From a virus, in IMG/VR virus record IMGVR_UViG_3300028111_000008, positions 1-54,646 of that record: a stretch of 54,646 bases of DNA, one strand, 5' to 3'. The translations under genes were made by a program, and so were the position numbers. Positions 1 to 54,646 of the stretch are shown here, one piece after another. Under the pieces are notes generated by a model. That model saw nothing but the letters and a program-made list of their open reading frames with translations, had not been told where the DNA came from and did not search any database. Positions within the stretch are counted from its first letter, which is position 1. Every line of letters begins with the position of its first letter.

Positions 1-70
1 TATTCATTTTATTGCTCTTTCTACTAAGTTAATTCTACTATTAGCACTCGTTAAAATGCTAATGTTAAAG

Positions 71-292
71 TTAACTATTCAAATAACCATTCATTCTATT
101 CTCAAAATCTTGTTTCATTTCTTTTATGGCTATATTCCAATCTTTATTTTGATCTAATGAATTAACAGTAAAGCAATCTATTTCTACAGCATCAACATTA
201 TTAAACAATTGCTCATAAACTGATATAAGCGTCCCTCCATGCCATTTATAAGAAAAACCGCTATCATCAAATTTTATTTCTGTATCAAACAT
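71..292 (-). CDS. small conserved protein, left paralogue or allele
   Basis: A 73-residue protein of unknown function, acidic in its second half, with no membrane segment. It is a diverged version of the 65-residue protein at 53757-53954: both start MFDTEIKFD, share KWHGGTLISVY and end near QDFENRMN, with a short insertion in this copy. Its start codon overlaps the end of the next upstream gene (292-510), so the pair is probably co-translated. Two copies with conserved reading frame support it being a real gene. Confidence 0.7.
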   Translation of the reverse strand: MFDTEIKFDDSGFSYKWHGGTLISVYEQLFNNVDAVEIDCFTVNSLDQNKDWNIAIKEMKQDFENRMNGYLNS

Positions 293-510
293 TATGCTAT
301 TTCCTCTTCTAAGTTTTTATATGCGTTTGTAATTGCGTTTTTATCATCAGTTGTTTTGACTATTTTGATATGTTTCTTTTTAGTATTATAATGTGAGAAT
401 TCTATTTCTGTTTTTAAAGATGCTTTTGTGTAGTCTCCGAATTCATCAAACCATTTTTGGCTATCAGTGTCATAGACGAAAAGAATGTAATAAGGTTTTG
501 TTGTTGTCAT
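292..510 (-). CDS. small conserved protein, first gene of leftward operon (left copy)
   Basis: A 72-residue protein of unknown function with a FVYDTDSQKWFDEFGDY core. It is almost identical to the 69-residue protein at 53957-54166 and differs mainly at the first residues and the C-terminus. In this copy it directly follows the promoter leader and is the first leftward gene; in the right copy another small gene (54171-54299) sits between. It probably acts early because it is next to the promoter, but no function can be read from the sequence. Confidence 0.72.
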   Translation of the reverse strand: MTTTKPYYILFVYDTDSQKWFDEFGDYTKASLKTEIEFSHYNTKKKHIKIVKTTDDKNAITNAYKNLEEEIA

Positions 511-543
511 AGCTAAATCCCTAAATAATTATTAATACATTAT

Positions 544-572
544 TCTATAAATTCATATTACACAAATAGCAA
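544..572 (-). promoter_or_regulatory. leftward sigma70-type promoter (left copy)
   Basis: On the minus strand TTGCTA and TATAGA are separated by 17 bases, and the first leftward ATG lies 34 bases beyond the -10 box. The right-end copy keeps the -10 exactly and the 17-base spacing with TTGTCT as -35, while the spacer itself has changed. Conservation of boxes but not spacer supports function. Confidence 0.55.
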
Positions 573-802
573 TACATTTATTTTGATATCATTAAAATAT
601 ATTAATATTTATTTATACTATATAATAGAAATAAAAAAGTATTAGCATTCGTATTGAAAATTAACCGCTGAGAGGCGTTGAGTTTGTTTGTGTGGTTTAG
701 CCTATGGGAATAGCCTAGAGGCTGTCAGTGGCGTGTTCGCTGTTTGTTCCGAGGGGGGTGTGGTAAAAATGTCACATTTCCAGGCGGTGTGGTATTTATG
801 CA

Positions 803-839
803 TCAATGTTACTAAAACGACACAGTGTTGCAAATATGT
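803..839. promoter_or_regulatory. two-part motif shared with the 49.7 kb promoter region
   Basis: TCAATGTTACTAA (803-815) and GTGTTGCAAATATGT (825-839) lie side by side here. The first recurs in the same orientation at 49742-49754, and the second recurs inverted at 49766-49780, immediately beside a promoter. The right-end copy of the control region repeats the first part. This looks like a binding site for one regulator acting at two places. Confidence 0.4.
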
Positions 840-15907: not shown

Positions 15908-15940
15908 TTTATGTACATTTAAAACCTTTTAGGAATTAAC

Positions 15941-16651
15941 ATGGCGACTTATATAAATCTAGTTAATGAATTACTTCGTCGTCTTAACGAAGTTGAGATT
16001 GGTGAATCTGATTTTTCCACAACTAAAAATGTTCAGTCTCTAGCTAAGGATGCTGTTAATTCTTCTATACGTGAAATACTACAAGATGCACAAGAGTGGC
16101 CTTTCACTCTAGTAACATATCAACATACGTTATCCTCTGGTACTAGCACGTATGATTTTCCTGCCGATTATTCAAAAGCTGATTGGGAAACTTTTTATCT
16201 AACAAATGCAGAGTCTGCTCAACCTGCACATCTACCTAGTATTTCTTATGAAAGTTATGTGTCAGAAAAAAGAAGTATAGATGATGTAGCTGGTGTAAAT
16301 GGTTATGGCATACCTACTACTGTATATAAAACACAGAACACTAAGTTTGGAGTTACACCTCCTCCCAATGCTTCCTATGTCATAGAGTATAGCTACTGGA
16401 AGTTCCCTGCAGATCTAACACTAAGTAGTGACGTTTGTATTATACCTGACAGATTTAGACACGTAGTACTTGATGGTGCTATGATGTACTTGATGCACTT
16501 TAGATCTAATGAACAGTCTGCTCAGTTACATGCAGATAAGTTTAAAAAAGGCATAAAGACTATGCGTAGACTATTAGTAGATACTAAAGATTACTTAAGG
16601 TCTACTGTAATAAACAGAGCAGGAAACTCTTTCTATAAGAATGATGTCTAG
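15941..16651 (+). CDS. head-tail adaptor (tail tubular A / gp4-like)
   Basis: A 236-residue protein placed between coat and stabilisation protein. It has a helical N-terminus (NLVNELLRRLNEVEI and AVNSSIREILQDAQEW), then a beta part with GIPTTVYKTQNTKFGVTPPPN, a pattern typical of podoviral tail tubular A or P22 gp4-like adaptors that close the portal. Ends one base before the next gene, so it is co-translated. The exact subfamily is uncertain. Confidence 0.75.
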   Translation: MATYINLVNELLRRLNEVEIGESDFSTTKNVQSLAKDAVNSSIREILQDAQEWPFTLVTYQHTLSSGTSTYDFPADYSKADWETFYLTNAESAQPAHLPSISYESYVSEKRSIDDVAGVNGYGIPTTVYKTQNTKFGVTPPPNASYVIEYSYWKFPADLTLSSDVCIIPDRFRHVVLDGAMMYLMHFRSNEQSAQLHADKFKKGIKTMRRLLVDTKDYLRSTVINRAGNSFYKNDV

Positions 16652-18193
16652 ATGGTAGATAAACTTAATACATACCTGTCAGTTTGTGCTGGAGGGTTGA
16701 TCACTAATGTAGATCCCTTGACACAAGCTTCAAACTTATCAGGTAGCGCTATACGTATGATTAACTATGAACCTGCCTTAGCTGGTGGTTACCGTCGTAT
16801 TAGTGGTTATTCTAATGATTATGGTACTGTTCCAGGTACAGGTGCTGTACTAGGCGTAGCAGTAAATGGTAATTTAGACGATGGTATATTTGCATGTAGA
16901 AAACCTACATCAGGCCATGACTATTTATACAAGTGGCAGGACTCCAGTAATTCTTGGGTAGCTATACCTGAGGCTGGCAATCCTAGTATGACTAATGTTA
17001 GTAGAGTAAGGTTTACTAGCTTTAACTGGTCAGGTGAAGTACTACTTCTTACTGATGGTATAAACCCTGCAGCTGCATATAATGGTACTGCATACACACA
17101 GATAACACACGCACAAGCTCCAAACAACCCTAAGTATTCTGAAGAGTTTGCATCTCATTTATTTCTGTGTGGGGATTCTTCTGAGCCATACAACCTATAC
17201 TTTAGTGCTCCATTAAATTATTCTGATTTTAGCCCTGCTAATGGTGCTGGTGTTATTAATGTAGGCTATACTATAACAGCAGTTAAAAAGTTTCGTAATC
17301 AATTATATATTTTTGGTTCTAATAATATTAAAAGACTAACAGGTAATAATTCGTCTAATTTTATATTAGAAAATGTTACTTCAAATATGGGTTGCCTTGC
17401 ACCTGATTCTGTGGTAGAGTTTGGTGGTGATTTACTTTTCTTAGGACCTGATGGTATACGTCCTGTTTCTGGTACTGATAAAATTGGTGATGTTGAACTT
17501 GCTACTGTATCTAAAGAGATACAATCTATATTTGATAATTATTATCTATCAGAACAAATAGAAGATATAGCTATTGTAGTACTTAGGAAAAAGTCACAGT
17601 TTAGATTTTTCTTTAAAAACGATTCGTCTTTATCTTTGATAGGTGGTATACGTAAGAGTCAAAATAAACAAAGTATTTTTGAGTATAGTCAGCTTACTGG
17701 TATTGAAGCAAATTGTGTAGATAGTGGATACATAGGACAATTTGAACATGTGATACATGGGGATGGTTCTGGTAAAGTACACAGACAAGAAAAAGGTAAC
17801 AATTTTGGTGGTAACTCTATATTTAGTTTATATCAAACGCCTTACTACTATATGGAAGATCCAGAAATACGTAAGGTAATACATAAAGTAAACACTTATT
17901 TAAAATCAGAAGGTGATACAGAAGTTTTTGTTGGTGTATCTTATGACTACGATGACACAGGAACAAGCAATCCTACTAACTATGAGTTTACTACAGAGGG
18001 TGCGGCTTCAATTTATGGTACAGCTATATACGGAGCAGGTGGTATATATGATGGTAATCCCTCACCTAAAACACTTACAAATATATCTGGATCAGGTAAT
18101 TCTGTTTCGATAAGTTACGTTACGAATAATACAAATGCAAGTCATACTATACAGGCAGTAGCCTTGACGTATGAAAAAGCCGACAGGAGATAA
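16652..18193 (+). CDS. P22 gp10-like phage stabilisation protein (tail hub)
   Basis: A 513-residue, beta-rich protein with repeated aromatic/Gly motifs that suggest a propeller. Blocks such as GGYRRISGYSN, LLLTDGINPAA, LFLCGDSSEPYNLYFSAPLNYSDFSP and FGSNNIKRLTG resemble the P22 gp10 family, which plugs and stabilises the DNA-filled head. Neighbours (adaptor upstream, fibre downstream) agree. Starts right at the end of the adaptor gene. Confidence 0.8.
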   Translation: MVDKLNTYLSVCAGGLITNVDPLTQASNLSGSAIRMINYEPALAGGYRRISGYSNDYGTVPGTGAVLGVAVNGNLDDGIFACRKPTSGHDYLYKWQDSSNSWVAIPEAGNPSMTNVSRVRFTSFNWSGEVLLLTDGINPAAAYNGTAYTQITHAQAPNNPKYSEEFASHLFLCGDSSEPYNLYFSAPLNYSDFSPANGAGVINVGYTITAVKKFRNQLYIFGSNNIKRLTGNNSSNFILENVTSNMGCLAPDSVVEFGGDLLFLGPDGIRPVSGTDKIGDVELATVSKEIQSIFDNYYLSEQIEDIAIVVLRKKSQFRFFFKNDSSLSLIGGIRKSQNKQSIFEYSQLTGIEANCVDSGYIGQFEHVIHGDGSGKVHRQEKGNNFGGNSIFSLYQTPYYYMEDPEIRKVIHKVNTYLKSEGDTEVFVGVSYDYDDTGTSNPTNYEFTTEGAASIYGTAIYGAGGIYDGNPSPKTLTNISGSGNSVSISYVTNNTNASHTIQAVALTYEKADRR

Positions 18194-18197
18194 TACT

Positions 18198-21100
18198 TTG
18201 GCAGGTTACGTAAGACAGTCTTCAGCAGACATAATACCAACAGCTACACTTCGTGCAGCACCTATTAACGCCGAGTACAACAAACTCCGTGATGCATTTG
18301 CAGTGTCTAGTGGACACAAACACGATGGCTCAACAGGAGAAGGTGGATACATTCCGCTTATCGGTGATGTTGATGCATTAAACAAAGTTGTTATAAACAC
18401 TGCTACTAATCAAGTAGGTGTCTTTGTAGAGGTATCTTCAGCCGCAGTAGAACAAATACGCTTCTCTGATGGGGCTATTATACCTGTAATAACTAATGAT
18501 ATAGACTTAGGTACATCTGGTTTAGAGTTTAAAGATTTATACTTAGATGGTACAGCACACATAGATACACTAGATGTAGATATTAATGGTGCAGTTGCAG
18601 GTACGTTTACTATAGGAAGTACGTTAGGTGTTACTGGAACAACTACTCTAAGCACAGCTAATATTACTACAGGTGTTATTACTTCTGTAGACATTAACTC
18701 TGGTGCTATAGATAACGTAACCATAGGTGGTACAACAGCAGGTGCTGGCTCATTTACTACACTGAGTGCTACAGGAACTGCTACTCTGGCTACTGTGGAC
18801 ATTAATGCAGGTGCTATTGATGGTACAACTATTGGTGCTTCATCAGCTTCACCTGCTACTGTAACAGACCTAACTGCTACAGGAACATCAACACTAACTA
18901 CTGTAGACATTAATGCAGGTAACATAGACAATACAGTTATAGGTGCATCAACAGCCGTTGCTGGTAGCTTTACTACAGTATCTACATCTGGTCAGGCTAC
19001 ACTAGCTACTGTAGATATAAATGGTGGTAATATTGATGGTACTATTATTGGTGCTTCTACTACAGCCGCAATAACAGGTACAACTATTACAGGCTCAAGT
19101 CTTGTAGGCCCACTTACAGGTAACGTAACAGGTAATATCACAGGTAACGTTACTGGTAATCTTACAGGCAATGTAACAGGTAATGTAACTGCAGGATCAG
19201 GTTTATCTACATTTAATAATGTAACTGTAAACGGTACACTAGATGTTACAGGTACAACTATTGCTAATGTTACTGACCCAACCAATGCTCAAGATGCAGC
19301 TACAAAGAACTATGTAGATACTGCAGATGCACTAAAGCTTAACCTGTCTGGTGGAACTATGTCAGGTGCTATTGCTATGGGCGGTAGTAAAATAACAGGT
19401 TTAGGTGCTCCAAGTGCTTCAACAGATGCCGCTACTAAGGGATATGTAGACACTGAGGTATCTGCTTTAGTTGACTCATCTCCTGATGCACTAAACACTC
19501 TTAACGAGTTAGCTGCGGCAATCAATGACGATGCAAACTTCTCAACTACTATTACTAATTCTATAGCTACTAAGTTACCTCTTGCAGGTGGGACACTAAC
19601 AGGTGACATTGTAATGGGTACTAACGCTGTAACATCTACAGCTAACCCTGCAACAAATGATGAGCTATCTCGTAAAGGTTATGTAGATGCACAAGATGCT
19701 ACTAAGTTAAACTTATCAGGTGGCACTATGTCTGGTGCTATAGCTATGGGTACAAGTAAGATAACTGGACTAGGTGATCCTACTGCTAATCAAGATGGTG
19801 CTACTAAGAACTACGTTGACACAACTGCCTTACTAAAATCAGGTGGTACTATGGCATCTGCTATAGCTATGGGTGGCAATAAGATTACTGGATTAGGTAC
19901 TCCTACTGCTAATACCGATGCGGCTACAAAAACTTATGTTGATAGTATCGCAGGTTCTAATACAGCGGCGGCGGCTAGTGCTACTCAAGCGGCTACTTCA
20001 GCTACTAATGCAGCAACATCAGCTACAAACTCAGCTAACTCAGCAACAGCTGCGGCTACCAGTGCTACTAATGCCGCTAATTCTTATGATGACTTTGACG
20101 ACAGATACTTAGGTGCTAAATCATCTGCCCCTTCAGTAGACAATGACGGTGACGCTTTAATAGCAGGTGCATTGTATTTTAACACTACAAGTAACATTAT
20201 GTTTGTTCGTAGTGGATCAGGTGGTTGGCAAGCGGCAGGTTCATCAGTTAATGGTACATCTGGTCGTAACACATATACAGCTACATCAGGACAGACTACA
20301 TTCTCTGCAACATATGATGTAGGCTACGTAGATGTATATCTTAATGGTGTAAAACTTTTAGTTGGTACAGACGTAACAGCTACAAGTGGTTCTACTGTAG
20401 TACTAAGTGCAGGTGCTACTGCTGGTGATATTATTGACATCGTAGGTTATGGTACATTCCAACTTGCAGATCACTATAGTAAGACTGCGGCAGATGCTAG
20501 GTTCTTAGGTCTAGCTGGTGGCACTATGACAGGTGACATTGATGGTAACGGCAATAAAGTTTTATTCGGTAACGTATATTCTCAATTATCAGACCTACCA
20601 AGTGCATCAACTTATCACGGTATGTTTGCTCATGTTCATGCAACAGGTAAAGGTTACTTCGCACATGCAGGTAACTGGATTCCATTAGCTAATGATACAG
20701 AAAAACTAAACTTATCTGGCGGTACTATGACAGGTAACTTAGACGTTGGTGGATCAGTTGAGTTTGATAGCTTATCTGGTACAGGCTCTGTGTCTATTAC
20801 AAACATACTTGATGAAGATAACATGGCATCTAACAGTGCAACAGCACTAGCCACACAACAGTCTATCAAAGCTTATACAGACACAGCTATTGCTAACCTT
20901 GTAGATAGCTCACCGGGTTCTCTTAATACACTTAATGAGTTAGCCGCAGCTTTAAACGATGATGCATCATTTAGTACTACTATAACAAACTCTATTGCTA
21001 CTAAACTACCACTAGCTGGTGGTACTATGACGGGTGCGCTTACAACTACTGGGCTGACTGTAAATGGTACTACACAAGTTGATAACTATGGTTCTACAAG

Positions 21101-22625
21101 CGGTAAAGGTCGCATACAATTTGGCAACTCTGGTCAAAAGTTTATTGAGGGTTTTGATACAGGTAATGCTGGTAGTGGCAGTTACTTAAAGTTTGGTAGC
21201 GGTTCAACAACTCAAATGACTTTGGACAACTCAGGCCGTGTTGGTATTGGTTGCACGCCTAGTCGAGTTTTAGATATTGCAACTACTACTGGTGGAACAA
21301 TAATCCACCTTACAGATGATGTAACAGGACACACAGCTACCGATGGTGTAGACATTCAACAGGAAGGTACTCTATTTCAAATACTTAATAGAGAAGCTGG
21401 CGATATACGCTTTGGTACAAACAATGCAGAACGTATGCGCATCACATCGTCAGGCAACGTTGGTATTGGTGAGGCAAACCCTCTTGGTAAATTGCACATA
21501 AAGGGGTCTGACACAGGTGCTACCGCATCTGCTCAAGGAAACTCTTTAGTTTTAGAAGATTCAGAGAATGGATTAAGTATTTTATCCTCTTCTGCTGGTG
21601 CAGGTTACATAAACTTTGGTGATAGTGGTGATAATAATATTGGCATGATTGTTTATGACCATTCTGCTAATGTACTTAAAACACATGTTAACGGCTCAGA
21701 ACGTATTCGCATAGACTCATCAGGCAACTTGTTGGTGGGTAAGACTACTACAGCTATTGGTACTGTAGGCACAACACTTGGTGAGTCTGGTTTTATAACT
21801 GCGACACGAAGTGGCAATCCAGTGCTTAATCTAAATCGTACAAGCAGTGATGGCCCTATAGCCGATTTCTATAGAGGTGATGTGTTAAAGGGTTCTATTA
21901 ACATTTTCTATAGCAACTTAATGATTGGTAAAGAAAGTGGTGCAAGGATAGCATTTGGTAGCACAAATATTTACTCAACTAATAATGCAGGTTCTACAGT
22001 AGATAACTCTTATGATTTAGGTTCTACAGCCTCTCGCTTCAAAGACGTATACGCTGTAAACTATCACGGCGATGGCTCTAACCTAACAGGTATTACAGAC
22101 ACAACCTACAGTGCTGGTGCTGGCCTTGATTTATCAGGTACAACTTTCAGTGTTGAAGATGATATACGAGAATATTCAGACCAAATAGTTGGGAATAATG
22201 CAAATGAATACACTAGGTGGGTAGCAGATAGAATTGAGATGGTTGTCCAAAATGGTGAGAAGATGCGTATTGAATCTGATGGTGACTGTCATGTCGATGG
22301 CAACGTCATTGCTTACTCAACAACAGTCTCTGATGAACGTCTAAAGAAAGACATCGTGAAGATAGACAATGCCTTAGATAAAGTATCACATCTAAATGGT
22401 TACACATTTGAATACTTAGCTGATGGCAAAAAGTCTGCTGGTGTTATTGCTCAAGAAGTCGAGAAGGTAATGCCAAGTGCGATTACTGAAAGCACACTTC
22501 CCCTCAAGATGGGTGAAGATGATAAGACTGAATACAAGACAGTGCAATACGATCAACTTCATGGATTAATGATTGAAGCAATCAAAGAACTTAAAGCTGA
22601 AATCGAAGAACTAAAAGCGAGATAA
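18198..22625 (+). CDS. tail fibre with C-terminal S74 chaperone domain
   Basis: About 1475 residues. I place the start at TTG 18198, eight bases after AGGAG, because the known type of N-terminus (AGYVRQSSADIIPTATLRAAP) begins there; ATG 18171 has no ribosome site. Then come repeated DINAGAIDGTTIGAS-like units, six TGNV-type repeats, AATKNYVDT units, an Ala/Thr/Ser-rich coiled coil and several IDSSGN shaft motifs. The last 100 or so residues (VSDERLKKDI, then AGVIAQEVEKVMP) form the intramolecular chaperone/autoprotease of the S74 type, which trimerises the fibre and cleaves itself off. Likely host receptor binder. Confidence 0.9.
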   Translation: MAGYVRQSSADIIPTATLRAAPINAEYNKLRDAFAVSSGHKHDGSTGEGGYIPLIGDVDALNKVVINTATNQVGVFVEVSSAAVEQIRFSDGAIIPVITNDIDLGTSGLEFKDLYLDGTAHIDTLDVDINGAVAGTFTIGSTLGVTGTTTLSTANITTGVITSVDINSGAIDNVTIGGTTAGAGSFTTLSATGTATLATVDINAGAIDGTTIGASSASPATVTDLTATGTSTLTTVDINAGNIDNTVIGASTAVAGSFTTVSTSGQATLATVDINGGNIDGTIIGASTTAAITGTTITGSSLVGPLTGNVTGNITGNVTGNLTGNVTGNVTAGSGLSTFNNVTVNGTLDVTGTTIANVTDPTNAQDAATKNYVDTADALKLNLSGGTMSGAIAMGGSKITGLGAPSASTDAATKGYVDTEVSALVDSSPDALNTLNELAAAINDDANFSTTITNSIATKLPLAGGTLTGDIVMGTNAVTSTANPATNDELSRKGYVDAQDATKLNLSGGTMSGAIAMGTSKITGLGDPTANQDGATKNYVDTTALLKSGGTMASAIAMGGNKITGLGTPTANTDAATKTYVDSIAGSNTAAAASATQAATSATNAATSATNSANSATAAATSATNAANSYDDFDDRYLGAKSSAPSVDNDGDALIAGALYFNTTSNIMFVRSGSGGWQAAGSSVNGTSGRNTYTATSGQTTFSATYDVGYVDVYLNGVKLLVGTDVTATSGSTVVLSAGATAGDIIDIVGYGTFQLADHYSKTAADARFLGLAGGTMTGDIDGNGNKVLFGNVYSQLSDLPSASTYHGMFAHVHATGKGYFAHAGNWIPLANDTEKLNLSGGTMTGNLDVGGSVEFDSLSGTGSVSITNILDEDNMASNSATALATQQSIKAYTDTAIANLVDSSPGSLNTLNELAAALNDDASFSTTITNSIATKLPLAGGTMTGALTTTGLTVNGTTQVDNYGSTSGKGRIQFGNSGQKFIEGFDTGNAGSGSYLKFGSGSTTQMTLDNSGRVGIGCTPSRVLDIATTTGGTIIHLTDDVTGHTATDGVDIQQEGTLFQILNREAGDIRFGTNNAERMRITSSGNVGIGEANPLGKLHIKGSDTGATASAQGNSLVLEDSENGLSILSSSAGAGYINFGDSGDNNIGMIVYDHSANVLKTHVNGSERIRIDSSGNLLVGKTTTAIGTVGTTLGESGFITATRSGNPVLNLNRTSSDGPIADFYRGDVLKGSINIFYSNLMIGKESGARIAFGSTNIYSTNNAGSTVDNSYDLGSTASRFKDVYAVNYHGDGSNLTGITDTTYSAGAGLDLSGTTFSVEDDIREYSDQIVGNNANEYTRWVADRIEMVVQNGEKMRIESDGDCHVDGNVIAYSTTVSDERLKKDIVKIDNALDKVSHLNGYTFEYLADGKKSAGVIAQEVEKVMPSAITESTLPLKMGEDDKTEYKTVQYDQLHGLMIEAIKELKAEIEELKAR
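19116..19187 (+). repeat. six 12-base tandem units in the tail fibre gene
   Basis: The frame encodes TGN followed by V, I, V, L, V, V; each unit is about ACAGGTAAYGTA with third-base changes. It can expand or contract in 12-base steps without breaking the frame, changing the shaft length. Confidence 0.8.
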
Positions 22626-22630
22626 GTTAG

Positions 22631-23740
22631 ATGGCATTACAAACTTCTGGTCAAATATCCTTAAACGATTTGCACGTTGAGGCTGGCGGTTCGTCTGGGA
22701 GCGAGTGTTCTTTTAATGACACTGATATTCGGGATATGATTGATAAAAGCTCTGGCTCACAAAGCTCAATGAGTGAGTTTTATGGGGCAACTTCTGGAAA
22801 TGAAGTAGAAGGCGCACACTTATTTGTTCAAGACCCAACAGAAAACACTGAAAGAGACATAGGCTCTAGTACCTATACATTTACAGTGCCTACTGGTGTA
22901 TTGAATATATCTGTTGTTTGTATAGGACAGGGTGCAGTTGAAACTTCTGGGACAAACAGTTTTAGAAGATACTATTATCAAAGTAACGGTGGCGGCTATG
23001 GCGGTGGCGGTTTATGTTATAAAAACAATATAGATGTTGTCGCTGGGCAGACATTTACAATAACGCTAAATAGTAGTTATGCAAGATTTTATAGGGCTGG
23101 TGTTTGTGATGTAAGAGGCAATGCTGGTAATTTAAAAAATGGTGGCACTTTCTCAGGAGGAGACGGCGGCGGAAATGGCGGAAACGGCGGCTCCAATAAT
23201 GCTGGCTCTAATAATGATGTGACTTTTTATGTAGGATCAGGCGGCGGTGGTGCTGGAGGATACGGCGGATCGGGCGGTGCAGGTGGTTCGGCTTATGCTC
23301 CGCCTAATTCTGGACGGAGTGGTGCTAATGGCTCAAATGGTGGCGGAGGTGGCGGAGGTAACATGTGGACTGATCAGCAAGGCTCTGGTTATGGTGGCGG
23401 TCACTACGGCGGTGGTACTGCGCCCTTTGGTCAAGGTTCGAATGGATCGGGTGGGTCTGGTGATACCAACAGTAGTAGTATCAACAACGGTACACAAGGA
23501 GGAGGTGGCTCTGGTAACACCTCAAACTTCCCATCTACAAGTGAAAGCAATGGTAATAGGGTTTTCTTTGGCGCAGGACATTTTGTTGGTTATGCAGATA
23601 TTGCCCCCGGAAGTTCTTTACCAAACCCTGCGGCAAGAAACACCGTTCGAGGATGTGTTCGTGTTGTTTGGGGTTTGGGGAGTGGACAAGCATTCCCATC
23701 AACTGATGTAGCATATAGAGATGGGGAGAGTACAAACTAA
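22631..23740 (+). CDS. Gly-rich tail adhesin
   Basis: A 369-residue protein. The N-terminus (QISLNDLHVEAGGSSGSE and FYGAT) is a shared phage tail attachment module. A long Gly/Ser/Asn-rich part (from about residue 115) with many GGGG runs resembles polyglycine-type adhesins in phage tails that bind host surfaces. The end is more ordered. It follows the S74 fibre and precedes a chaperone-like gene. Confidence 0.75.
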   Translation: MALQTSGQISLNDLHVEAGGSSGSECSFNDTDIRDMIDKSSGSQSSMSEFYGATSGNEVEGAHLFVQDPTENTERDIGSSTYTFTVPTGVLNISVVCIGQGAVETSGTNSFRRYYYQSNGGGYGGGGLCYKNNIDVVAGQTFTITLNSSYARFYRAGVCDVRGNAGNLKNGGTFSGGDGGGNGGNGGSNNAGSNNDVTFYVGSGGGGAGGYGGSGGAGGSAYAPPNSGRSGANGSNGGGGGGGNMWTDQQGSGYGGGHYGGGTAPFGQGSNGSGGSGDTNSSSINNGTQGGGGSGNTSNFPSTSESNGNRVFFGAGHFVGYADIAPGSSLPNPAARNTVRGCVRVVWGLGSGQAFPSTDVAYRDGESTN

Positions 23741-23928
23741 TGTATACCGATGCAGAAAATCAAGTAATAGAATTAATTCGTGTTAAAAGAGATAAAATAT
23801 TAGAAGAGACAAGTGGCTGGGAAGGATCGGGAACTAATGAGCAATTAGCTTACCGCCAAGCTATTGCAGATATTGAAGATCAGTCTGAGTTTCCTTTTAA
23901 TGTAACATGGCCTACAAAGCCTACCTAA
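23740..23928 (+). CDS. tail fibre assembly chaperone-like protein
   Basis: A 62-residue protein. AYRQAIADIEDQSEFPFNVTWPTKP is the pattern of the small C-terminal domain shared by phage tail fibre assembly proteins. Its ATG overlaps the adhesin's stop. The 96-residue protein at 26493 carries the same C-terminal block, so each fibre gene set has its own helper. Confidence 0.75.
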   Translation: MYTDAENQVIELIRVKRDKILEETSGWEGSGTNEQLAYRQAIADIEDQSEFPFNVTWPTKPT

Positions 23929-24016
23929 AAGAATTTACTTACCTAAACTTTAGCTAAGTAATAAACCCAAGATAATTTTGTCTTGGTAACCTTAACCAAA
24001 ACTAAAGGAGTTTATA

Positions 24017-24241
24017 ATGGGAAAAACAGAAAAAAACCCAACTATAACTATCAATGATAAAGAATACGATATTGAGAGTATGACTGATCAGCAAAAGATT
24101 ATGATCAACCATATTGCCGACTTAGATCGAAAGATTTCTACAACGCAATTTAACCTAGACCAAATAAGTATTGGTAGAGAAGCTTTCGTCAATAGGCTTA
24201 CAGCTTCCTTGGAAGAACCAGCCGTAGAAGAAGCAGCATAA
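24017..24241 (+). CDS. small conserved protein, DUF6447-like
   Basis: A 74-residue helical protein with ITINDKEYDIESMTDQQKIM then a coiled coil. This kind of protein is common in marine phages near fibre genes, where I remember it as DUF6447; role unknown. AAAGGAG lies upstream of the ATG. The gap before it (23929-24016) holds a CCAAGA/TCTTGG hairpin (23967-23986) without a U-run. Confidence 0.6.
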   Translation: MGKTEKNPTITINDKEYDIESMTDQQKIMINHIADLDRKISTTQFNLDQISIGREAFVNRLTASLEEPAVEEAA

Positions 24242-24267
24242 ATTATATAATATAAAAAGGATGAGCC

Positions 24268-26478
24268 ATGAGTAAGGCAAGAGACTTAGCAGACAGTGCA
24301 CAAGAGATAAACATTTTAGATGGTAAGAGTTTCCTTGACGAGGATAACCTTGCCAGTGACTCTGCTACTGGTATTGCTAGTCAGCAGTCTATCAAAGCAT
24401 ATGTAGATGGTATCACTACAACTAACATCACCTCTACAGGTGCATTGAATAGTGGTAGCATAACGTCAGGTTTTGGTAACATAGACAATGGCTCATCTAC
24501 TATAACAACTACAGGTGCTATCTCAGGTGGTAGCTTCGTAATAGGTAGTGCTGATATTAATGAGAGTGATTTAGAGAGTATTGATGGTATTACCGCAGGT
24601 ACAGTATCAGCATCTAAAGCTGTCGTAGTTAATACAAACAAAGATATAACAGGCTTCCGTAACATAACAGCTACAGGTACTATCAGTGGTTCACTTAGTG
24701 GTACACTTAGCGGTTCTCTATCATCTACTACTACAGCAACAACACAAGCTGAATCAGATGATAGTACTAAGATAGCTACAACAGCTTACGTTACAGATAA
24801 GATTACAACACTTATTGGTGGCGCACCAAGCACACTCAATGACTTGAATGAGTTAGCTGCGGCTATTAATGATGATGCTAACTATAACACTACACTCACA
24901 ACAGCATTGGCTACTAAGTTACCTTTAGCTGGTGGCACTATGACAGGCGATGTCCTGTATAATGATAGTGTCAAAGCTAAGTTTGGTGCTGGGTCTGACC
25001 TACAGATTTACCATGATGGGTCTAATAGTTATATCAACGATACTGGCACAGGAAAGTTACGGATTGGTGGCGATACAAGTGTAAGCATTACTAATTCAGA
25101 TAACACTGTTTCATATGCAGTCTTTAACGATGCAAATGCTGTTAAGCTGTATTACAACGATGCTAAAAAGTTTGAGACAACATCTACGGGCGTATCTATA
25201 ACAGGTGGTGCTTCAGTATCAGGTGACATTACACAAACAGATGGCGATTTAATCTATAGCGGCAATATAAACTGGGACATATCCCATACTGTAGCCTCTC
25301 AAAATATAGTGATTAAAACAACACCATCAGGCGGTTCTCCTACAGAAGCCATGCGCATCGACTCATCAGGCAACGTGTTGGTAGGTACTACTGATAATAA
25401 CGTTACCAACAACTCAGGCAATAACCCCGGTATAAATATCGGTGTCGCAGGTATTAAAGGGTATATGTCTTCTGCACGTTATCAAGGGCCACCTCTTTCT
25501 ATTAATCGTTTAGGCAACGATGGGGACATTCAATTATTTTCTAAAGACGGCGCAACTGTAGGTAGTATTGGTGTTAATACAGATAGACTATACCTAAGTA
25601 CAGCTACTCGTGGCATTGCGGTAGATGAAAGTGGTGGAACTTTACTACCTGTAAATGGGGCTGGTGCTAATAATGACAACAGTTTAAATTTGGGTGCGTC
25701 TTCGGTTCGCTGGAAAGACCTTCACCTATCAGGCAACATAAGTGTTGGCGGTACAGTAGACGGACGTGATGTAGCATCAGATGGTTCTAAGCTTGATGGT
25801 GTGGCTACTAATGCTAACAACTATTCACACCCAACAGGTAATGGTAATAACCATATCCCTAGTGGCGGCTCTACAGACCAAATACTTAAATATGCATCTG
25901 CTGGCACTGCACAATGGGCAGACGCTAGTGGTGGCTCAAGAGTATTGTTAAGCAGGTCGGTTATGAACAACACTTCATCTTATGTTTTTACAGGAGTTGA
26001 TAGCACTAAGTATGATAGTTACTATATTGAGTTTAATGGCATAGTCTGTACCCAAGACTCAAAAGATTTTTTAATGAAATTTAGTGACAACGGCGGTAGT
26101 TCTTACAAAGGCTATGGGGATGTACGAGGAACTCTCTTTTACCATAAGGGTGGCTCTCAGTTGAGCGACACTTGGAACGAAGATATGAGAATAAGTAGAC
26201 AACAAGGCTTTACTACTTCAGGAAACTTTGGAGCTAATGTGAGTGGATATGTAATGATAATGAATGCACATGGTGGAAATACAGTAACCACCCAAGCGAT
26301 GGGGTCTGCTACATATAGGGCATACAGCAATGAACAGGTAGTAACTTTGTATTCTTGCGGAACTGCTGAAGAGAGTTATTCAAGAAATATTTGGACTGAT
26401 TGGAATGCATTCAAGCTACAGTTTGATAATGGTAATATGCAAAAAGGTACAATTTCAGCTTTTGGTATACTCAAATAA
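24268..26478 (+). CDS. second tail fibre
   Basis: A 736-residue protein with repeats like those in the first fibre: LDEDNLASDSATGIASQQSIKAYVDG, STLNDLNELAAAINDDAN, LAGGTMTGD and IDSSGNVLVG. The shaft is followed by a C-terminal part (from about residue 560) without an S74 domain, which probably folds as the receptor-binding tip. Paralogy with the first fibre means shared DNA stretches that can recombine. Followed by its own assembly protein. Confidence 0.85.
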   Translation: MSKARDLADSAQEINILDGKSFLDEDNLASDSATGIASQQSIKAYVDGITTTNITSTGALNSGSITSGFGNIDNGSSTITTTGAISGGSFVIGSADINESDLESIDGITAGTVSASKAVVVNTNKDITGFRNITATGTISGSLSGTLSGSLSSTTTATTQAESDDSTKIATTAYVTDKITTLIGGAPSTLNDLNELAAAINDDANYNTTLTTALATKLPLAGGTMTGDVLYNDSVKAKFGAGSDLQIYHDGSNSYINDTGTGKLRIGGDTSVSITNSDNTVSYAVFNDANAVKLYYNDAKKFETTSTGVSITGGASVSGDITQTDGDLIYSGNINWDISHTVASQNIVIKTTPSGGSPTEAMRIDSSGNVLVGTTDNNVTNNSGNNPGINIGVAGIKGYMSSARYQGPPLSINRLGNDGDIQLFSKDGATVGSIGVNTDRLYLSTATRGIAVDESGGTLLPVNGAGANNDNSLNLGASSVRWKDLHLSGNISVGGTVDGRDVASDGSKLDGVATNANNYSHPTGNGNNHIPSGGSTDQILKYASAGTAQWADASGGSRVLLSRSVMNNTSSYVFTGVDSTKYDSYYIEFNGIVCTQDSKDFLMKFSDNGGSSYKGYGDVRGTLFYHKGGSQLSDTWNEDMRISRQQGFTTSGNFGANVSGYVMIMNAHGGNTVTTQAMGSATYRAYSNEQVVTLYSCGTAEESYSRNIWTDWNAFKLQFDNGNMQKGTISAFGILK

Positions 26479-26492
26479 AAAAGGTAACGACG

Positions 26493-26783
26493 ATGTCAAA
26501 TCACAAAATAGTAGACGGAATAACAATACAGCTTACTGAAGAAGAAGAAATCCAACTAGCGGCAGAACGGGCGGCACAAGAGGCTAAAGCTCCAGAATAC
26601 GCAAGAAAAGTACGTGATGACTTACTCTTATCAGATGTAGACCCTATTGTATCTAATGCTTTACGTTGGAACGAAATGTCAGAAGATAAACGAACGGAGT
26701 GGACTAATTATCGTCAAGCTCTGTTAGATATAGAAGACTTAGATGGCTATCCAGATAATATAACATGGCCTACTAAACCATGA
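26493..26783 (+). CDS. tail fibre assembly chaperone-like protein
   Basis: A 96-residue protein with an acidic helical N-terminal part (LTEEEEIQLAAERAAQEAK) and the NYRQALLDIEDLDGYPDNITWPTKP end typical of phage tail assembly chaperones. Directly follows the second fibre, and shares its end block with the protein at 23740-23928. Confidence 0.75.
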   Translation: MSNHKIVDGITIQLTEEEEIQLAAERAAQEAKAPEYARKVRDDLLLSDVDPIVSNALRWNEMSEDKRTEWTNYRQALLDIEDLDGYPDNITWPTKP

Positions 26784-26829
26784 CCGAGAGTTGGCACTTA
26801 TCTAAGTCAGTATAAGGAATGCAAAATCA

Positions 26830-47109: not shown

Positions 47110-47450
47110 ACTCTAGCTAACCTCTTTATACCATAGTGCTCTTCTGTGTTTGTTCTGATAGCGTGGCAGTTTGCACATAATACCTGACACTTGAATACCT
47201 CTTCTTTTATTTTCTTGTTACTTTTAGTATTTTTACCATAGCGCAAGTAATGTGCTTTCGTAGGTACTAAAAACTTTTTATCTTCAGGTATTATATGATC
47301 AAAATGTAGTGCTGCTGAGAAAGCTCTGTACCCACAATGTGCACAACCCTTCATCGTCTTATACCTACGCAGTATAGACTGACCTTCATCATACTTTTTT
47401 CTTCTGCGTATATTATCTTTTTCTTTACTCTCTTCACTTCTCACTCTCAT
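47106..47450 (-). CDS. HNH endonuclease-like protein
   Basis: About 114 residues from ATG 47450, which follows GAGGG (an upstream M at 47489 is possible but overlaps the integrase more). Basic N-terminus, then the HNH fold: GCAHCG, LHFDHIIPEDK and VLCANCHAIRT. Acts as a nicking or homing nuclease in many phages, inserted between other genes. It lies between primase and integrase. Confidence 0.8.
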   Translation of the reverse strand: MRVRSEESKEKDNIRRRKKYDEGQSILRRYKTMKGCAHCGYRAFSAALHFDHIIPEDKKFLVPTKAHYLRYGKNTKSNKKIKEEVFKCQVLCANCHAIRTNTEEHYGIKRLARV

Positions 47451-48351
47451 CTTCATTCCCTCTCGCTGATAGTGCTTTAGATGCACCACTCAATGTATTT
47501 ACTATATAAGGTTTTACTGATTGTATATTCTTATGTCCTGTTACCTGCATAATATTAGCTAAGTCAACCCCACCTTCCATCATCTCAGTCACAGCAGTAC
47601 GGCGCAAGTCCATAGCTGTAAGCTCAGCAGGTAGATTAGCTTCATCTAGTACCTCATTGATAAGTAAAGATATTTCACCCTTATCATATGGTGTATATGC
47701 CGCTGCTCTTGGCTTGACTCTAGGTGCTACATAATCCTGGAATCCAAAGTCTTCCTTCTGTTGTCGCAGCATCTCACACAAACCATTAGATATAGGTAAG
47801 TGTACTTCAGCATTACGTTTGCTTTGTGTTAGGTCTAAGCGACACTGATCTAAGTCTAATGTATCCCAAGTCATAACTCTCATGTCACCTATACGCTGAC
47901 CCCAATCATATGCCATGTGTACAATAAGACTAATGCTCCGCCATCTGAAGTCACTATAGCCTACCTCAAGAAACGTTTTGATCTGATCTCTACTCCAGTA
48001 TACACGCCTCTGCTTACTAGCCTTAGTTTGTACCAGTGCTACTGGGTTGTGTATCATTACATCCTGTCTCATGGAATACTTCCAAGCAGCAGATAGTACA
48101 GCCTTACGATAGTTTGCAGTGCGTACACCTGTGTTAAGCCATTGATCATACGCTTGTGTAAGGTGTCGTACTTTAATATTAGTACAACGATAGTTGCCAA
48201 GGGTCTTGCCTTCAACAAGTGTATTAATCACAGACGCTAGATGTATTTCATAATCCTTTTGAGATGCACCAGATAGCCTAGCAAAGGCAGGAGATACCAG
48301 ATAAAACTCTACGATATCACTTAGCTTAGCATTACCCTTGGGTATCTTCAT
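47434..48351 (-). CDS. tyrosine recombinase / integrase
   Basis: 305 residues from ATG 48351 after GGAAGG. SAM-like N-terminal domain, then the catalytic domain: R153 (DWGQRIGD), K178 (QSKRN), R250 (MDLRRTAVTEM), H273 (TGHKN) and nucleophile Y282 (KPYIVNT). The usual first His (HxLR) is Met at 247, a change that also occurs in active integrases. Suggests site-specific integration or dimer resolution. No repressor, excisionase or att site was identified, and no tRNA gene flanks it. Confidence 0.9.
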   Translation of the reverse strand: MKIPKGNAKLSDIVEFYLVSPAFARLSGASQKDYEIHLASVINTLVEGKTLGNYRCTNIKVRHLTQAYDQWLNTGVRTANYRKAVLSAAWKYSMRQDVMIHNPVALVQTKASKQRRVYWSRDQIKTFLEVGYSDFRWRSISLIVHMAYDWGQRIGDMRVMTWDTLDLDQCRLDLTQSKRNAEVHLPISNGLCEMLRQQKEDFGFQDYVAPRVKPRAAAYTPYDKGEISLLINEVLDEANLPAELTAMDLRRTAVTEMMEGGVDLANIMQVTGHKNIQSVKPYIVNTLSGASKALSARGNEDESEK

Positions 48352-48352
48352 G

Positions 48353-48454
48353 TTACCTTCCTTTCGCGTTTCTGTACCAGAGATATAAAGCACCACCAAT
48401 GTAAGCAGCAATAACAGTTAATGGTAGTAGATGCATTGTTATATTACTACTCAT
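48353..48454 (-). CDS. tiny single-pass membrane peptide
   Basis: 33 residues: MSSNITMHLLPLTVIAAYIGG, then LYLWYRNAKGR, one membrane helix and a basic end. Its ATG overlaps the upstream gene's TAG by several bases, and its stop lies just before the integrase start. Function unknown. Confidence 0.5.
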   Translation of the reverse strand: MSSNITMHLLPLTVIAAYIGGALYLWYRNAKGR

Positions 48455-53108: not shown

Positions 53109-53693
53109 TTATGCTATTTCATGAATGCGTCGCCATACTACCCACGTAATAGCTTGTAATTCATATGCTTTTAAACCTAATGCGTTTGCTGTATTCACGT
53201 AATCGTTTTGTATTTCTGCATATAGTTTTTTACCAATGTTAGTTTTATCGGATGTTAATCCAAATCTTTCTCCGCGCCATATGTTTAGAGCGTGACCATC
53301 AATACAACACGCATCAAAACCCATTATGCATTCGTAAAAGCTTTTAATCTTTTGACCATTTAATCGTGTCAAAATATCGTCATTAGTTACAAGCATATCA
53401 TCAAGTATTGACCACGCTTTTTCTTTCATTTTGTGATATGTTGAAACCTTAACGCTTTCAATATGTTCACCATCAAGATAAGCTTTTATCAATGCATCCG
53501 CGTTATCTATATTCCTATCCCATTTATTATTCGGACTAAGCGCGGATATGACACCAACCACTGTTGAAAGTTTTATATCATATTTTAAAGAGATTTCTTT
53601 TGCTTGATATTGCGCGTCACTATACCATTTCACACCATTATAAACTTCTTTTGGTGTCGCAAGCTTCCAAATCATTGCTATATTATTATTCAT
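53109..53693 (-). CDS. conserved phage protein (DUF7178-like, glycosylase-like features)
   Basis: 194 residues, helical. VVGVISALSPNNKWDRNIDNADALI, KIKSFYECIMGFDACCIDGHALNIWRG and a Trp-rich end follow the order of a conserved phage family (I remember it as DUF7178), in which the helix-turn-helix spacing and Asp near the end recall HhH DNA glycosylases. Not proven. Its first bases match the left end of the window. Confidence 0.6.
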   Translation of the reverse strand: MNNNIAMIWKLATPKEVYNGVKWYSDAQYQAKEISLKYDIKLSTVVGVISALSPNNKWDRNIDNADALIKAYLDGEHIESVKVSTYHKMKEKAWSILDDMLVTNDDILTRLNGQKIKSFYECIMGFDACCIDGHALNIWRGERFGLTSDKTNIGKKLYAEIQNDYVNTANALGLKAYELQAITWVVWRRIHEIA

Positions 53694-53756
53694 TTTATTG
53701 CTCTTTCTACTAAGTTAATTCTACTATTAGCACTCGTTAAAATGCTAATGTTAAAG

Positions 53757-53954
53757 TTAACTATTCATTCTGTTTTCAAAATCTTGTTTCATTTCTTGTA
53801 TTACTATATTCCAATCTTTATTATCAGCTAATGCAATAACTGTAAAACAATCAAATTCAACAGCGTCAAAATTATAAACTGATATAAGCGTACCACCATG
53901 CCATTTATAAGAATAACCGCTATCATTATCAAATTTTATTTCTGTATCAAACAT
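53757..53954 (-). CDS. small conserved protein, right paralogue or allele
   Basis: 65 residues; same family as 71-292, with an eight-residue deletion in the middle and several substitutions (for example SGYSYKWHGG against SGFSYKWHGG). Function unknown. Conservation of frame in both copies shows selection. Confidence 0.7.
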   Translation of the reverse strand: MFDTEIKFDNDSGYSYKWHGGTLISVYNFDAVEFDCFTVIALADNKDWNIVIQEMKQDFENRMNS

Positions 53955-53956
53955 TT

Positions 53957-54166
53957 TTATATTTCCATTTCTAAGTTTTTATATGCGTTTGTAATTGCGT
54001 TTTTATCATCAGTTGTTTTGACTATTTTGATATGTTTCTTTTTAGTATTATAATGTGAGAATTCTATTTCTGTTTTTAAAGATGCTTTTGTGTAGTCTCC
54101 GAATTCATCAAACCATTTTTGGCTATCAGTGTCATAGACGAAAAGAATGTAATATGATTTTGCCAT
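53957..54166 (-). CDS. small conserved protein, right copy
   Basis: 69 residues, almost identical to the protein at 292-510 (FVYDTDSQKWFDEFGDYTK), with different first residues (MAKSYY against MTTTKPYY). Follows the extra gene at 54171 by four bases. Confidence 0.72.
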   Translation of the reverse strand: MAKSYYILFVYDTDSQKWFDEFGDYTKASLKTEIEFSHYNTKKKHIKIVKTTDDKNAITNAYKNLEMEI

Positions 54167-54170
54167 TATT

Positions 54171-54299
54171 TTATACCTTACTTTTTATTGAGAATGAATA
54201 ATTCACGATTGCGTTTTTACGAAATGGAACAAATAGAAAGAACATGAAATGTTTTGTTTGTGTCTCTCTAACTTTGCACGTTTCAAATTTTAATCTCAT
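54171..54299 (-). CDS. tiny basic protein present only in right copy
   Basis: 42 residues: MRLKFETCKVRETQTKHFMF, then FLFVPFRKNAIVNYSF. The sequence before its ATG (CATAGCTAAATCCCTAAATA on the plus strand) is identical to the leader before the 72-residue gene in the left copy, so the same leader serves different first genes. A real variable gene or a strain difference; function unknown. Confidence 0.5.
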   Translation of the reverse strand: MRLKFETCKVRETQTKHFMFFLFVPFRKNAIVNYSFSIKSKV

Positions 54300-54331
54300 A
54301 GCTAAATCCCTAAATAATTACTAATACATTT

Positions 54332-54360
54332 TCTATAATTTATATTTATACAAAAGACAA
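54332..54360 (-). promoter_or_regulatory. leftward sigma70-type promoter (right copy)
   Basis: On the minus strand TTGTCT, 17 bases, TATAGA, 33 bases before the ATG at 54299. Corresponds to 544-572 in the left copy with the same -10 box and spacing. Confidence 0.55.
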
Positions 54361-54482
54361 TACATTTATTAAGAAAATATAAAATAGCAAAAACCTGGTA
54401 TGTTCTCCTTTTGTTCTTTTGGATTTGTTTATACTATATAATGGGTTAAAAAAAGTATTAACATTTGTGTAAAAATTAACCG

Positions 54483-54543
54483 CTGACAGCCTCTAGGTTT
54501 GTTTGTGTGGTTTAGCCTATGGAAATAGCCTAGAGGCTGTCAG
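54483..54543. repeat. perfect 15-base inverted repeat in the control region
   Basis: CTGACAGCCTCTAGG (54483-54497) and CCTAGAGGCTGTCAG (54529-54543) with a 31-base loop. The left copy has the right arm intact but a changed left arm (from about 669), so the stem is lost there. Could be an origin cruciform, protein site or transcription hairpin. Confidence 0.75.
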
Positions 54544-54646
54544 TGACGTGTTCGCTGTTTGTTCCGAGGGGGGTGTGGTAAAAATGTCACATTTCCAGGC
54601 GGTGTGGTATTTATGCATCAATGTTACTAAAACGACACAGTGTTGC

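Follow-up and report, generated by a model that had tools for sequence, protein, structure and literature searches.

The closest named relatives of the phage analyzed here are the Roseobacter phages CRP-207, CRP-2 and CRP-603, which are members of the HMO-2011-type group (PMC9038755). The sequence studied (hereafter the window) is an entire IMG/VR virus record of 54646 bases from a marine phage, and it shares approximately 82% DNA identity with CRP-207 over 46% of its first 25 kb. The window resembles the HMO-2011-type roseophages in the gene order of the packaging and structural part, and in possessing an integrase, a DNA polymerase A with a DnaJ-like insert and an RNR. Genes found included those for a terminase, portal, major head protein, DnaB-like helicase, family A DNA polymerase, class II-like RNR and a tyrosine integrase (47434-48411). 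For the core genes of the group, matches were obtained to DnaB_C, portal, major head protein and TerL, with a weak primase-like Toprim match. The polymerase has the partial DnaJ domain of the HMO-2011 type, placed between the exonuclease and polymerase parts, with a Pfam DNA_pol_A match (residues 328-677) accompanied by an exonuclease match (53-123) and a DnaJ CXXCXGXG match (293-332) that were both weak and below the cut-off. One strict CXXCXGXG motif was present (residue 297); the HMO-2011-type paper reports two in the polymerase. Direct repeats (18681-19060 and 19715-19942; 68-78% identity) lie within a 1484-aa ORF, nearby stretches of which are similar to part of the ORF at 24268-26478. 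Compared with a 52925-base relative (G008), much of the genome was 93-99% identical, with approximately 10 kb (window 15922-26829; probably tail/fibre genes) largely different.

The ends of the window carry two versions of one variable locus, for which two described situations offer a comparison. De Bruijn assemblers generally break at places with several paths, and COBRA treats contig breaks of this kind, at within-population variation in metagenome assemblies, by rejoining the ends or picking one path (PMC10914622). The window resembles such breaks in that its ends lie in sequence common to both paths, at a distance of about one k-mer from the variable part; it differs, however, in that both branches were kept in one contig and in that the shared flanks (81 and 100 bases) fit no one k. 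In marine phages, microdiversity and genomic islands are known to fragment assemblies (PMC6487183). As in those islands, a short locus is highly variable between near-identical cores and short-read assemblies are fragmented, but here the locus is shorter than 1 kb, lies not in tail-fibre genes but in a putative control region from which the gene blocks diverge, and varies as a mosaic of alleles and small indels.

A preliminary description of the window had reported an end-to-end alignment of 1-831 (version A) with 53687-54646 (version B). This was confirmed with exact coordinates: both versions were alignable over their full length in the same orientation, and the best piece had a BLAST bit score of 664 compared to no more than 28 with shuffled sequence. 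The alignment comprised 730 matches and 72 substitutions (91.0% identity over 802 aligned positions), with gaps of 3, 127 and 28 bases in A and of 12, 15, 1 and 1 in B. The description had also spoken of many changes between nearly identical flanks; the changes stand, whereas the flanks proved to be fully identical. The left shared flank (1-81) matches 53687-53767 exactly, and the contig start is separated from the first difference between A and B by a distance shorter than a k-mer or a read; the right shared flank (54547-54646) matches 732-831 exactly, with the contig stopping 100 bases past the last difference. A middle block of 186 bases (307-492, corresponding to 53969-54154) is likewise the same in A and B. 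Between the two versions lies the single-copy core (832-53686), common to both alleles.

Close relatives were gathered from IMG/VR by pattern scans and a protein search, and the locus was found in a single copy throughout. A record from sample 3300028135 (L007) followed the order 53686, 1-831, 832 gap-free over 14632 bases at 99.966% identity (5 mismatches), and a second from sample 3300024293 (L006) did so over 11417 bases at 99.974% (3 mismatches). No mismatch of either record fell inside A, which was in both the sole version and was flanked directly by core on either side. In a third record, from sample 3300017730 (L008), version B was joined directly to the core: the match was gap-free over 12818 bases through 54646 to 832, began within B at 54351, and was exactly identical from 54374 of B to 1564 of the core, across the joint. 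The two versions were thus seen apart in independent samples, A complete and B in part (54351-54646). A complete B as in the window was found in no other record, L008 carrying its last 296 bases only.

Four further relatives had one mosaic version of the locus each, with core on both sides in three (L009, L010, G006) and with a contig end inside the locus in the fourth (G007). G008 also had one copy, and its own ends meet at window 993/997, indicating that it covers the circle once. Core sequence therefore bordered a single copy on both sides in six records (L006, L007, L009, L010, G006 and G008). In protein searches with ORF1, ORF2 and ORF3, each of the eight records that gave a match had a single copy, and none of the ten related records contained a second copy of the locus or A and B adjacent in tandem. 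In CRP-207 the homologue of the DUF7178 gene that borders the locus is gp01, at the start of the record, and the conserved right-hand box is near its end, which places the locus across the closing point in that phage as well.

Since core-A-core and B-core were both found, and B-A tandem in no record, the contig is best read as A-core-B. We consider it very probable that assembly produced this arrangement from real strain variation at a single-copy locus, and that it is not a duplication. The source would be a phage population with a genome of approximately 53.7 kb, either circular or circularly permuted, in which every genome has a single copy of the variable control locus, flanked by two gene blocks transcribed in opposite directions away from it. 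Two or more alleles, among them A and B, would have been present in the sample, as the occurrence of both in one contig suggests. At the locus the assembler would have met a bubble and given a path running from the shared flank through A, once round the core, through B and into the shared flank on the opposite side, a branch in the graph being the probable cause of the ends. The preliminary description had offered a circular genome assembled across two strain variants as one of two readings, and the single-copy arrangements core-A-core (two samples) and B-core (one sample) support it.

When de Bruijn graphs were simulated from two circles with one copy each, they broke only at this locus. At k=101 the unitig of B ended exactly at 54646 and at k=81 the unitig of A started at position 2, and on either side the contig ends in sequence common to A and B, no further than about one k-mer from where they begin to differ. 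One fixed assembler k was also considered as the cause of both flanks; no single k yielded both ends in simulation, and the argument from k is only suggestive. The identical 186-base block exceeds common k values, so that the left and right halves of B are only presumably in phase.

The other reading in the preliminary description, a true duplicated control region evolving in place, was unsupported. It would require a tandem duplication within one molecule, B followed by A over the joint of the circle, with the single-copy relatives having lost the other copy by recombination. The window by itself is compatible with this, and the 186 identical bases in the middle of the copies are what gene conversion could leave. 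However, two copies were present in none of the ten related records, genomes that are near-identical to the window (99.97%) have A alone, and in L008 B is followed by 832, where a tandem would place A. In simulation a B-A tandem produced an additional unitig across the 54646/1 joint, which is absent from the contig and falls exactly where the contig ends. A tandem duplication is therefore very unlikely.

We regard as slightly less probable again a linear genome at whose physical ends A and B would be direct terminal repeats that have diverged. There are indeed two copies in the same orientation, one at each end of the contig, but L006 and L007 continue gap-free for more than 11 kb across the place where the genome would end (from 53686 into 1 and on to 832), which refutes a terminus for A. 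Terminal repeats that are copied by concatemer processing are identical. The copies here are merely 91% alike, and the remark in the preliminary description that simple terminal redundancy of one molecule would leave identical ends was correct. An integrated prophage with its attL and attR sites at the contig ends can practically be dismissed, for although a tyrosine integrase is encoded and the related phage CRP-3 integrates into tRNA-Met (PMC6918029), host DNA is absent outside the repeats, the repeats are diverged and approximately 830-960 bases long, the window has neither a tRNA gene nor an Rfam match, and the integrase lies approximately 5 kb from the nearer copy.

On this reading the virus has a closed genome of approximately 53.7 kb, amounting to 53686 bases when the allele is A and 53815 when it is B, and not a linear genome of 54.6 kb with a duplicated control region. 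Retention of both branches in the contig left a diverged repeat at its ends, and because no exact end repeat was found the circularity went undetected and the record was classed as 'linear' in IMG/VR.

The locus is bordered on the left by a gene on the minus strand (53109-53693) that belongs to DUF7178 and phrog_3842 and has 40% identity to its CRP-207 homologue, gp01. An inverted copy of approximately 48 bases of the end of this gene occupies positions 1-48 of L009, probably as a chimera that arose in amplification or assembly. On its right the variable part is followed by a conserved box (754-847), and no other piece of the locus resembles CRP-207 at the DNA level. Two small ORFs, both on the minus strand, occupy the variable part. 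ORF1 spans 71-292 in A (73 aa) and 53757-53954 in B (65 aa) and had no family match; its allele indels (3, 12 and 15 bases) are all multiples of three and keep the frame, and it is therefore probably a real gene. ORF2 spans 292-510 in A (72 aa) and 53957-54166 in B (69 aa), and it is missing from L009 and L010. Neither ORF had a match in Pfam or a relative in the phage collection searched, and a weak match of ORF2 to phrog_25622 (E 0.011) was the only one in PHROGs. In contrast to the shared structural part, CRP-207 has no match to either ORF. An optional insert of approximately 127 bases in version B contains a 42-aa ORF (54171-54299, minus strand), which is absent from A and is 98% conserved in G007 (L020) and L010 (L026).

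The locus lies at the minimum of the cumulative GC skew, between the leftward and rightward gene blocks, and this combination suggests that it may be a control or origin region. Version B has a perfect 15-bp inverted repeat (54483-54543; arms CTGACAGCCTCTAGG and CCTAGAGGCTGTCAG), for which a strong hairpin is predicted (z -7.3); in A other sequence stands in place of the 5' arm. Comparison of the hairpin region (54483-54543 in B; 664-730 in A) across all versions showed a 3' arm that changes little and a 5' arm that occurs in several forms. The 5' arm complements the 3' arm perfectly in B, L008 and L010 and with mismatches in G007, G008 and L009, whereas in A and G006 it is largely non-complementary. 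No RNA family (Rfam) or tRNA was detected in the window, and promoter-like sites were no more numerous than in shuffles. A regular-expression count gave a single canonical G-quadruplex motif in the window, at 957-988 just to the right of the locus, and approximately 9% of shuffled windows have one by chance. L007, L010 and G008 share this motif, and CRP-207 has a different G-quadruplex motif at the homologous place. The contig break of G008 falls within approximately 10 bases of the motif; G009 ends well past the homologous place.

Across seven haplotypes of the locus, 2301 of the 4063 testable pairs of informative sites (57%) failed the four-gamete test, a count whose exact value depends on the alignment in gapped parts, and all four combinations of ORF1 type and insert presence occurred. 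Both results support a shuffling of the locus by recombination between strains, which is ordinary for phages. We propose only tentatively, and think it rather doubtful, that the locus acts as a recombination-driven site for switching alleles of a control region or gene cassette. Small ORFs, the 127-base insert that some versions have, and a half-site on which formation or loss of the hairpin depends would then be exchanged between co-infecting strains with the rest of the genome nearly identical, perhaps varying early expression, replication control or superinfection immunity.

For the record itself, the correction substitutes a closed genome of approximately 53.7 kb for a linear one of 54.6 kb, and the case illustrates that diverged end repeats can conceal circularity from completeness tools. 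For this abundant group of marine phages, a mosaic control locus of this kind could serve as a marker of exchange between strains.
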